DNA of 64,000 bases from the NCBI RefSeq assembly GCF_001424835.1, contig NZ_LMCQ01000020.1, forward strand, positions 249,384 to 313,383. Direction: 5' to 3'. Below are positions 35,801 through 45,627 of this stretch, piece by piece. Origin of the DNA: Variovorax sp. Root318D1. GTDB lineage: Bacteria; Pseudomonadota; Gammaproteobacteria; Burkholderiales; Burkholderiaceae_C. The number at the start of each line of letters is the position of its first letter. Within the stretch, counting starts at the first letter, position 1. A model generated the notes under the pieces. That model was given only the letters and a program-made list of their open reading frames with translations. It was not told where the DNA came from and ran no database searches. The position numbers were made by a program, and so were the translations under genes.

Positions 35801-37998
35801 CCGGTGAAGGAGCCGCTGCCGAACACGTCCTGGTAGATGTCGGACGCGCCGCTGCCGTACGGGTCGAGCCCACACTGCCCGGCAAACATCCAGTGGAAGA
35901 GCGAGCGCTCGTTGCGCAATGGGAAGGGCGTCACGATGCGCGGCTGGAGGATGCCGAAGCCCGCGACCACGCGCCGGCTTTGCGCGTCGATCTCGGGTGC
36001 ATTGAGCGGGTGGGCGGCAATCGACACCAGATCTCGCAGCGCGCCCGGCGGCAGGCCGGTGTCGCTGTCGAGCGTCAGCACGTAGGGCGTTCGTCCCGAT
36101 GCCAGCCGCTGGCCCGATGCGAGCGGCAGAAAGCCGCTGGCGTCGCCCGTTGCCAGGAGGCGCATCAGCATTTCGATCTTGCCGCGCTTGCGCTCCCAGC
36201 CCATCCAGCGTTCTTCGGTGCCGCTCCAGCTGCGCGGGCGGTGCAGCAGCAGGAAGCGCGAGGCCGCGCCTGTGGTCGCTGGATATTTCGCATTGAGGGC
36301 TGCGATGCGCGCAATGGCATCGTCGAGCAGCGGTGCGTCGTCCGGCAGCGAGGCTTGCGCAGCGTCGGCCCAGTCGGTCAGCAATGCGAACTGGGCGTGC
36401 TCTTCGCGATTGGCGAGCCAGTGCAGTTCGAGCCGATGGGCGAGCTGCGCGGTGTTCGCAGGCGAGCTCAGCAGCGTGGGAATGACGACGAGCACTCGGT
36501 GCCGCTCGGGAATGCCGGCCGGGAAGTCGAGGCGCGGCAAGGCCTGGACCCGCACCGACTCGGCCATGATGCGCTGCGCCAGGGCGATCAACGCCTCCGA
36601 GAGCGGCCATGCGAGCAGTGCCATCGCCGCAACGGTGTTCCAGCCACGAGGAGACGGCAGTCCGTTCGCCACCGCCGTCAGCAGCCACGCGGTGCCCAGC
36701 ACGATGGAGAGCACATACGCGGGCAGGCGCCAGCCGCGGCGGCTGCGCAGCGGCCAGACCCTTGCAGGCCGGCGGACGTGGCCCGCCGCGGCATCGGATT
36801 GCAGCGCGCCTATCAGCTCGGCGCGTCCTTGGCCGAACAGGTAGTAGCCGGCGGTGCCATCGGCTCGGTCGGTATCGGCCTGCACATCGTCAGCCGGCGC
36901 GGCTGCCGCGAGCCGCACCACGGCCTGCGCCACCTCGCGCTCGGAGCGGCCGCTGTCGCGCGCAATCCGCTCCATCGCGTGGGTGATCTGTTGGCGCGTG
37001 AGCTCGCTCTCGTCCACGAAGCTCGGCAGCTCGCGCAGCACGCGCAGCGACCGACTGACGGGTTCGATCAGGTCGCTCCACTCGACCTGGCCGATCATGC
37101 GCAGCGTGGTGATGATGTTGCCGACGGTGAGGTTGGCCGCGGCTTGTGCGTTCTGAGCCTCGCCGATCAGTGCCGGCCCGTTGGGGCAGTGCTGTTCGGT
37201 CCAGCGCACCAGCGCAGGAACGTTCTCGCCATGCTCAACCGGCAAGCGCTGCCAGAGCTGCGTGATGTAGGCATCCTGCAGGTTGTGGCTTTGCAATGCG
37301 CGATACAGCGCGTCGAGGTCTGGTGTCGAGAGATGCGGCGCCGCATCCCAGACTGCGTGCGCTATTTCGCGCGCGACCTTGTTCTCGGCGATGCTCTCGG
37401 CCACGCGGCGCAGGTTTTCGAGCAGCACCACGCGCAGGGTAGTGGGCAACGCCCAGAGCTCGCCGAGCGTGAGCTCGTCGATATCCTGGTAGGCATTGAG
37501 AAAAGCAGTGAACAGCGTCTTGTTGAGCACGCTGTCGGTGTGGGCCACGTAGGCCCACGCAATACCGTAGACGCGCGGCAGCCCCGCGAGCGGAGGCGTG
37601 GCGAGCTTCGGCAGTCGCGCGTAGTAGCTGCGCGGCACGCCGTCATGGATCTGCTGCAGCTGGGCTTCCACCAGGTGGAAGTTGTCGAGCAGCCATTCGG
37701 CCGCGGGCGACACATAGCGACCGCTCTGCGAAATGAGCGCGATGTAGTCGAAAGCATTCCGCAGCGATTCGAGGTTCTCGTCGACGCGCGGAAAAAAGGG
37801 CGCACCTTCGCGCGCGCGGCGGGGGTCGACTTCGACGACCTGAGCGCGGGACAGACTGTGGCCGTGCTGTTCGAAGCGCTGGGCGCCGAAGAGTTCGGCG
37901 CGGATCGGTGGCGCCACCGGATCATGTGGCGCAAGGAGCAGCGCGCGCGCGTACGGGCTGAGGTCTGCGAGCCGATCAACGACAAAGGCGGCGCTCAT
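29821..37998 (-). CDS. cyclic beta-1,2-glucan synthase (NdvB/Cgs-like)
   Basis: Very large inner-membrane enzyme, 2725 residues, that starts, elongates and cyclises beta-1,2-glucan exported to the periplasm. Order: cytoplasmic N-terminal region (1-430); two helices (about 435-490); a glycosyltransferase core (about 500-810) with a DxD-type motif in TLDSDTGLPPG (about residue 640), a DLLEGTVAR motif and an HRWVRGDWQ acceptor motif (about 795); further helices (about 820-990); a glycoamylase-like domain (about 1020-1390, HHQGMSLVALCHVL near its end); and a C-terminal GH94-type glycoside phosphorylase region with TGDWNDGMN near 2412, normally setting chain length. The ATG 37998 is inside a hairpin loop, and a short leader ORF ends on it. 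Known to aid osmoadaptation and host interaction in Rhizobiales and Brucella. Confidence 0.9.
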   Translation of the reverse strand: MSAAFVVDRLADLSPYARALLLAPHDPVAPPIRAELFGAQRFEQHGHSLSRAQVVEVDPRRAREGAPFFPRVDENLESLRNAFDYIALISQSGRYVSPAAEWLLDNFHLVEAQLQQIHDGVPRSYYARLPKLATPPLAGLPRVYGIAWAYVAHTDSVLNKTLFTAFLNAYQDIDELTLGELWALPTTLRVVLLENLRRVAESIAENKVAREIAHAVWDAAPHLSTPDLDALYRALQSHNLQDAYITQLWQRLPVEHGENVPALVRWTEQHCPNGPALIGEAQNAQAAANLTVGNIITTLRMIGQVEWSDLIEPVSRSLRVLRELPSFVDESELTRQQITHAMERIARDSGRSEREVAQAVVRLAAAAPADDVQADTDRADGTAGYYLFGQGRAELIGALQSDAAAGHVRRPARVWPLRSRRGWRLPAYVLSIVLGTAWLLTAVANGLPSPRGWNTVAAMALLAWPLSEALIALAQRIMAESVRVQALPRLDFPAGIPERHRVLVVIPTLLSSPANTAQLAHRLELHWLANREEHAQFALLTDWADAAQASLPDDAPLLDDAIARIAALNAKYPATTGAASRFLLLHRPRSWSGTEERWMGWERKRGKIEMLMRLLATGDASGFLPLASGQRLASGRTPYVLTLDSDTGLPPGALRDLVSIAAHPLNAPEIDAQSRRVVAGFGILQPRIVTPFPLRNERSLFHWMFAGQCGLDPYGSGASDIYQDVFGSGSFTGKGLLNVRAVHATLDRRLPEGAVLSHDLLEGTVARCAMVSDVVLIEDHPHHAGVAASRVHRWVRGDWQLLPLIWRARRFGIDALGLWKMGDNLRRSLVVPASFALLVLVIFTQAMPLGWALAAVASALTLGPLLGALAGLVPTRRAIELRHFFEVGAVELLRAMAGAAWQFVQLAAQSRLLLDAMFLATWRLTVSRRHLLQWTTTAQAQAQSSQRLPPFLRNAALSTGFCLALAVVAARWSAYPVAGPLLFLAWALAPFAAWWSSRVDPDVPDPLSAEQRAYLEKLAQDTWRFFEHVVGPDDNHLPPDNLQLEPQPTVAHRTSPTNIGMYLLATCCAREFGWLDTAALIVRITATLDTIDRMQKHEGHLFNWYDTQTLRLLPPAYVSSVDSGNLAGHLVAVAQACRTFAAEGCQSHEEPALEALARRCDALHAGMDFSGLYDPKRHLFHIGLRVEENELDASYYDLLASEARLLSFLAIAKGDVPRRHWMALGRPFLLVGYQPGLKSWSGSMFEYLMPALVMSEPADGLLQVANTAAIAEQQAFGRSLNLPWGVSESAYFAQDHSLAFQYSPFGVPRLALRRTPPTDRVVAPYASAMAAVLAPAAAVVNLELLESLGARGEFGFHDAVDFTTSRQAEGQDFTVVRNFMAHHQGMSLVALCHVLRAEAPRRWFGSAALVQAHESLLHERTPRQIIGSADPRTPPEPSLGELAPLFQPRAVDPTASGFQPTHLLSNGRYTVALRANGAGVSRWHAFNVTRWRDDPLRDSHGTFFFLRDEGQQELVSLTALPAPGAGWSYRTRFLAEQVQFDATGDGLQVRTTVLISPEDDTELRNITLHNTGEKTRTLELVSYFEPVLSNPKADEAHPAFANLFVESRWEPAWRALLMTRKPRLHGDPVVAAAHFLASVDAHVLSIDCMTDRRAFIGRNRSLASPALDPQPMAPDSTPVNGLDPIACLRVRLSIAPGATAHLSFATAADESVEALMPSIDRYLEPMHVERAMRMAATLAQVRLRDLSIAPAQTFALQDLTTILTYTTPRAMKDRGLIDLRQIWRFGISGDKPIVLVAIHSMNGMGLVNALLRAQPWWGFGGVACDLVVLNSEPNSYLMPLQREIEALRLRVAHQTQNSFPRNDTAGFYLLRDHEVAPSEKAALSKLARVVFTADGRSLEMQVAALHEARVDTGTDPEIPAASSRVALLARLAGGPSAEAPTGSFDADSGEFRFDIDAGHRTPRPWINVIANANFGFQVSEWGTGFTWAGNSRMHQVTPWSNDPVQDPAFEHYLLQDVASRAMLPLTPAGQGAEHESEVRHRVRHGQGYTVFECLQQNLALETTFFADRDDAVKLVHVRVRNEGTSQRRLRALGMVEWQLGAARGERRTAHCWKPEDLPAVFGQQRESSAGFGGSTAFLLLAGSPGATQWTCDRNEFFAGRGIVEVPDTLARRAGGGLDACAAIGGEFVIGAGETAEFSFVLGHAGNADAALALARRWSQRDVHEALAAARGFWDELLGRLQVRTPDPLFDAMVNRWLIYQTLACRLWSKAGFYQAGGAFGFRDQLQDAMAFALTDPSRLREQILVNAARQFPEGDVQHWWHMPGGAGVRTHFSDDLLWLPFATAHYVEVTGDAALLDHAVGFIEGPAIPEGAEDAYYVPQHSGRMASVFEHGALAIDRSLETGVHGLPLMGTGDWNDGMNRVGHEGRGESVWLAWFLCRVVEQFAPIAQARGEHGRAARWNEARRGWITALHDAGWDGAWFRRAFFDNGAPLGSSANDECRIDLIAQAWSVLSGASNDAHTAPAMAAIEKHLRDEPAGLLRLLAPPFAHSANNPGYIQAYPPGVRENGGQYSHGAVWALMAQALQGDHEAAWQSFEGLSPAHRAAHPERGPAYELEPYVMAGDIYSAAPYVGRGGWSWYTGSAAWLHRAAVETLLGLCVKGRELSLTPRVPAHWPGFEMALRLGPRRLTLQWGTPDAAATPTHHAAIGEWIDWQALPADAVLRVG

Positions 37999-38010
37999 TG
38001 CGCCGCCTTT
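37984..38010 (-). promoter_or_regulatory. translation-initiation hairpin of the cyclic glucan synthase gene
   Basis: On the minus strand AAAGGCGGCGC, a 5-base loop AATGA, and GCGCCGCCTTT make a perfect 11-bp stem. The loop contains the ATG of the glucan synthase, and the 5' arm contains its only Shine-Dalgarno (AAAGG, 7 bp before the ATG), so both are sequestered. No T-run follows on either strand, so it is not an ordinary terminator. Confidence 0.6.
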
Positions 38011-38030
38011 GCGTGGGTTTCGGATGGCAT
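37995..38030 (-). other. candidate 11-residue leader ORF ending on the glucan synthase start
   Basis: ATG at 38030 opens a frame of 11 codons (MPSETHAKAAQ) whose TGA stop overlaps the glucan synthase ATG as ATGA. Ribosomes reading it would pass through the initiation hairpin. Only a weak Shine-Dalgarno-like CAGG precedes it, so translation is unproven. Confidence 0.35.
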
Positions 38031-38092
38031 GCTGCCTGCCGGTTCCCTCTCGGGGAGAGTTGCAGCCCGTATCGGGTCAAAGGCGGCCACCC

Positions 38093-38440: not shown

Positions 38441-38460
38441 GGAAAAGGCGTACAGACGCC
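38441..38460 (-). terminator. probable weak rho-independent terminator of ppc
   Basis: On the minus strand GGCGT-CTGT-ACGCC forms a short stem followed directly by TTTTCC. It sits 35 bp past the ppc stop codon at 38495. The stem is only 5 bp, so termination may be partial. Confidence 0.45.
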
Positions 38461-38494
38461 CTTTCCTGCTCTATTCCTCATCGATCCGGACGTG

Positions 38495-45598: not shown

Positions 45599-45627
45599 AA
45601 AAACGGCGCCAGGATGGCGCCGTTTTT
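45599..45627. terminator. bidirectional rho-independent terminator between hemY and rne
   Basis: AAAAACGGCGCC (45599-45610), a 5-base loop AGGAT, and GGCGCCGTTTTT (45616-45627) make a perfect 12-bp stem. It has a T-run on the + strand for hemCDXY and an A-run that reads as T on the minus strand for rne. Confidence 0.9.

Follow-up and report, generated by a model that had tools for sequence, protein, structure and literature searches.

The closest precedent for the locus described here is the ORF27-iraD pair of E. coli, which has been studied experimentally and for which the authors propose both unfolding and reinitiation (PMC5574718). As at the Variovorax locus, the stop codon of a short ORF overlaps the start codon of the gene that follows, whose Shine–Dalgarno (SD) sequence is sequestered by an RNA structure (PMC5574718). 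ORF27 is described as a 27 aa ORF with its own SD, located in a leader and repressed by CsrA (PMC5574718), whereas the Variovorax leader frame lies inside an operon, 2 nt after the stop codon of another gene, and by eye lacks an SD of its own. The 3′ arm of the Variovorax hairpin moreover falls in codons 2–6 of its target gene, and the likeness to ORF27-iraD is one of layout, not of compared sequences.

Two further groups of systems share part of this arrangement. In the f1 VII-IX and MS2 coat-lysis junctions covered by a review, the downstream ribosome-binding site likewise lies at a hairpin, which upstream translation is thought to open; their upstream frame is a functional gene (PMC12548453), whereas the Variovorax leader appears to be free of peptide-level constraint. 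Synthetic nfORF boosters also place ahead of the target gene a short frame that encodes a nonsense peptide and contains a ribosome-binding site (RBS) beside its stop codon, but they were engineered to raise expression (PMC13255528), whereas the Variovorax leader is natural and is accompanied by a stable start-codon hairpin. According to the review on coupling, the most efficient spacings are −4 to +3 nt; several studies found coupling to be weak beyond 30–40 nt, one still observed it at distances of up to +350 nt, and in another a structure just after the stop codon lowered coupling (PMC12548453).

In the window, i.e. the whole 64 kb stretch of DNA analysed, the gene order on the minus strand is a gene that from its sequence we take to be ppc-like (41341–38495), a 72 aa small ORF (38311–38093) and a 2725 aa cyclic glucan synthase-like gene (37998–29821). 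The last resembled the solved NdvB/Cgs structures 8rf0 and 8rf9 in two stretches (best 1148–2686) and contained the domains PF10091, PF06165 and PF17167 (Glycoamylase and GH94) above cut-off, and on this similarity and these domains it was assigned to the cyclic β-1,2-glucan synthase (NdvB/Cgs) type, its product being predicted. Nothing on Variovorax together with cyclic glucan was found in the open-licence PMC literature. The small ORF has an SD-like AGGAG ahead of its ATG. Just after the ppc-like gene, at 38441–38466 on the minus strand, a hairpin GGAAAGGGCG/CGCCTTTTCC (one G–U pair) looks by eye like a terminator, and the small gene and the synthase may therefore form a separate transcription unit. 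In Variovorax paradoxus DS1452 (L034) the small gene still stands together with leader, hairpin and synthase, while no ppc end was located above it.

The region was gathered from 95 distinct relatives, identical sequences being merged, which left 11 rows with and 84 rows without an insertion of 94 nt between the TGA of the small gene and the ATG of the synthase (37999–38092, minus strand). One of the relative sets comprised the best 80 of 556 matches, the nearest of these with a name being Variovorax; the source of all 11 insertion rows was a search of 101 Variovorax genomes, 53 of which gave any match. The small gene was found upstream of the synthase in all 95 relatives. The insertion had the same length in its 11 rows, which formed a single Variovorax clade (support 99/91), and it required one change on the tree. 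Among the 84 other rows, the distance from the small gene's stop codon to the first in-frame synthase start was −8 to +16 nt in the 82 in which the spacing was determined, the commonest junction being the overlap TTGA (34 rows). The junction in most of the relatives examined thus has a layout typical of coupling, in keeping with the optimum of −4 to +3 nt, and such coupling should be weaker with 94 nt between the genes. The hairpin is accordingly not a general feature of the gene pair; it is part of a clade-specific insertion that parts two genes adjacent in relatives. Relatives without stem and leader, which the sequence-only reading had regarded as grounds for refutation, do occur outside the clade; they limit the range of the element and do not refute it, since the whole insertion is absent there and 82 of these 84 rows keep the genes within −8 to +16 nt.

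Sources of the insertion were sought in two directions. A mobile or repeated element was rejected: a search of the genome itself with a 136 nt query gave, besides the locus, best matches with E values of 0.36 or worse, and there was no plasmid match. A copy of nearby DNA was also rejected, as linkers compared with their own upstream or downstream DNA or with 12 non-insertion starts did not score consistently above mononucleotide shuffles in 92 comparisons. The lowest values were 3 of 300 (L006 with L089) and 5 of 300 (L007, reverse complement, downstream), followed by 10 (L009 with L089), 11 (L037, reverse complement, upstream) and 12 (L001 with L015); these low values among 92 comparisons were taken as chance.

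The synthase start at the hairpin ATG looks right from database N-termini, themselves predictions: of 33 printed, 18 have MSAAF as their first residues, which places their start at this ATG, and the remaining 15 start from the homologous codon. The homologous codon was ATG, spanned by the hairpin, in all 11 insertion rows and TTG in the sister clade (nearest sister row L008). Residue 5 was phenylalanine in all 11 and A, S or V across 16 sister rows chosen by hand as a control. In nine of the 11 rows the synthase frame upstream of the ATG was closed by a stop codon inside the insertion.

The hairpin has the form CAAAGGCGGCGC-AATGA-GCGCCGCCTTTG and occupies 38011–37983 on the minus strand, with the synthase ATG inside the loop. 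Its 5′ arm (38000–38011) contains the SD-like AAGGCGG (38003–38009), invariant in all 11 rows, its loop (37995–37999) combines the synthase start with the leader stop, and its 3′ arm (37983–37994) covers synthase codons 2–6. A perfect stem, the AUG in a five-base loop, the SD in the stem and a leader stop on the ATG had all been read from the sequence beforehand and were confirmed; the stem, given as 11 bp, is indeed perfect and measures 12 bp (38011–38000 with 37994–37983). Folded alone, the 29-mer gave −23.4 kcal/mol; the 121 nt around it gave −60 kcal/mol, compared with −41.19 (sd 3.92) for 200 dinucleotide shuffles, none of which was as low (z −4.80). The SD was predicted to be sequestered by structure in 11/11 insertion rows. 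Stems with 11 or more uninterrupted pairs and a loop of 3–9 were rare in the 464 kb scanned: the window had two, counting that at the synthase start, 400 kb taken from this genome had four (two within predicted ORFs), and three first-order Markov copies of the window contained one, none and none. The exact 11+5+11 pattern occurred at a single place in the 5.75 Mb assembly, and the whole 64 kb window gave no match to Rfam 15 at the gathering score.

Conservation of the arms was near-complete. The columns of the 5′ arm (86–97) showed one change where the linker rate predicts 18.3, and the five arm columns outside the SD showed one where it predicts 7.6; the 12 columns of the 3′ arm also showed one change, compensated in the 5′ arm. 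The loop was NATGA, its first base being A, G or C (three changes) and ATGA being invariant, and the outermost possible pairs were looser, column 85 having changed four times yet remained paired and column 84 being broken in three of the 11 rows. Third positions of the synthase were invariant in five of six codons over codons 2–7, compared with 21 of 50 over codons 2–66, which is modestly unusual. The search for compensatory changes among orthologues, proposed as a check, gave one pair: the single change in columns 86–97, in L034, was matched on the opposite arm (A–U to G–C), a weak case of covariation that was seen in one genome and equalled by 50 of 500 shuffles. This symmetrical change would also be accounted for if the perfect 12+5+12 dyad were the DNA operator of a dimeric regulator, which covariation fits as well as it fits an RNA stem. 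That reading is nevertheless very improbable: the genome contains one exact copy, the site follows the small gene and is remote from the promoter that presumably precedes this gene, and the fixed length of the linker would be left unexplained. The suggestion that the hairpin melts with temperature fared worse. Location of the SD in a stem is what an RNA thermometer or ionic switch would share with this hairpin, but in the folding model pairing of the SD stayed above 98 % at temperatures between 15 and 70 °C for the two sequences tried (L001 and L034). A switch of this kind is considered highly improbable, and no finding pointed to ionic or osmotic control.

An 11-codon leader had been proposed to run through the stem. 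The frame exists (38030–37995), but its ATG is present in only two of the 11 rows, and the unit shared by all of them is a 31-codon frame (37995–38090, minus strand) that begins with GTG at +2 after the stop codon of the small gene and ends with a TGA overlapping the synthase ATG (ATGA). It was open in 11/11 rows with its GTG and its end conserved; it had 31 codons, with spacings of +2 and −4 at its two ends, in each row, and the ATGA overlap was present in all 11. No SD was seen by eye at normal spacing from the GTG. That the frame stays open does not in itself count as evidence, as 1070 of 5000 simulations also kept all 11 rows free of stop codons.

Fixed length amid rapid substitution sets the linker apart. 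Parsimony gave 113 changes over its 74 columns (about 1.5 per column) with no length differences among the 11 rows, and no gaps were opened under lower gap penalties. In the same genomes, with one alignment and a fixed tree for the indel counts, a promoter-proximal non-coding stretch of 93 columns (11 rows) had accumulated 42 changes and 12 indels, and the gap between ppc and the small gene, with 201 columns (10 rows), 131 changes and 30 indels; L034 is missing from the latter, as no ppc end was located within approximately 600 nt above the end of its small gene. Scaled from these controls, 26–33 linker indels would be expected by substitutions and 6.5–11 by columns, compared with none seen. 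Changes at the three codon positions numbered 31/45/37 in the linker and 19/18/117 in the synthase; judged by its substitutions, the leader thus shows no sign of peptide-level constraint. The fixed length could reflect a need for spacing instead of a need for frame. Indels the size of a codon are too few for these to be told apart: the small gene shows 2 per 139 changes, which gives an expectation of 1.6 for the linker. Within the linker, a GGGCTG block (38063–38068, minus strand) was nearly invariant (one change in six columns) despite the fast turnover around it. A −1 frameshift joining leader and synthase was rejected, no conserved slippery heptamer and no spacer ahead of the stem being seen by eye.

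On another account, the insertion just upgraded the RBS, replacing a TTG start by ATG and supplying the SD-like AAGGCGG, with leader and hairpin as by-products and no coupling involved. This is improbable, given that the stem hides the very SD supplied and yet has been kept, even outside the SD, and that the linker has taken about 1.5 changes per column without indels. We consider it probable, though well short of certain, that the leader frame acts as a relay that keeps the synthase translationally coupled to the small gene while the hairpin blocks direct initiation. Ribosomes finishing the small gene would restart 2 nt later at the leader GTG, traverse the 31 codons, open the hairpin and, on leaving the leader, restart at the overlapping ATGA (−4) on the synthase. 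With its SD held and its AUG enclosed by the hairpin, the synthase start would not easily be reached by free ribosomal subunits, so that direct entry would be hard and synthase output would be tied to the small gene. We infer the translation of the leader, to which the fixed length lends indirect support, the opening of the stem by it and the dependence of the synthase on it. The translational switch suggested by the sequence-only reading stands in part: the paired SD, the enclosed AUG and the leader running through the stem to the ATG support a coupling layout, but the leader has 31 codons and the element is a clade-specific insertion.

Ribosomes on the leader would also matter if the hairpin were a transcription attenuator, i.e. 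a weak intrinsic terminator at the synthase start whose formation they prevent. The GC stem flanked by AAA and TTT does resemble terminators of this genome, such as that at the ppc end and one at 45599–45627, but just three T residues follow the GC core (TTTGTCGTT), the terminator scan, which listed 10 candidate sites, did not include this one, and L034 keeps the stem pair while TTT has become TTC. A possible antiterminator, GCCGCCTTTG at 38086–38077 on the minus strand, is a repeat of the 3′ arm and thus a potential partner for the 5′ arm; it was rejected, being found in one of the 11 rows only, that of the window itself. Attenuation is therefore considered unlikely. The hairpin at 45599–45627 is a 13 bp stem, AAAAACGGCGCC-AGG..., with a T-run and is a terminator by eye; the ATG of a 1183 aa plus-strand ORF at 45614 lies within it and is probably no real gene start. 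An outer helix around the relay hairpin (columns 28–38 with 117–129) was rejected as well: 95.9 % of its cells were paired, but 103 of 300 permuted linkers folded equally, and single-row duplex energies were not better than shuffles (at best 21 of 300, in L003).

The element is real, conserved and clade-specific, and it most probably represents a naturally occurring form of translational coupling as already known. What is unusual about it is a frame kept in its length and ends and apparently not in its peptide. The chances are about even that selection has acted on the ends, length and frame of the leader and not on its peptide, an insertion between coupled genes having been domesticated as a ribosome relay through which the hairpin makes passage obligatory. 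If this is true, the insertion clade and its sister represent a natural experiment on coupling that survives an insertion, and bacteria can conserve a small ORF for carrying ribosomes even when its peptide does no work. ORFs of this type would escape tests based on amino acid conservation, and constant length amid free substitution would offer another route to their detection.

The 72 aa small protein, the upstream partner of this synthase, has a hydrophobic C-terminal stretch and no Pfam or NCBIfam match; its 116 database proteins are mostly named ‘hypothetical protein’. Distant versions in L111 and L112 contain H-x3-C-x2-C ahead of the hydrophobic stretch, and that of L111 gave a sub-threshold match to the zinc-finger family PF13453 (17.6 bits compared with 22).
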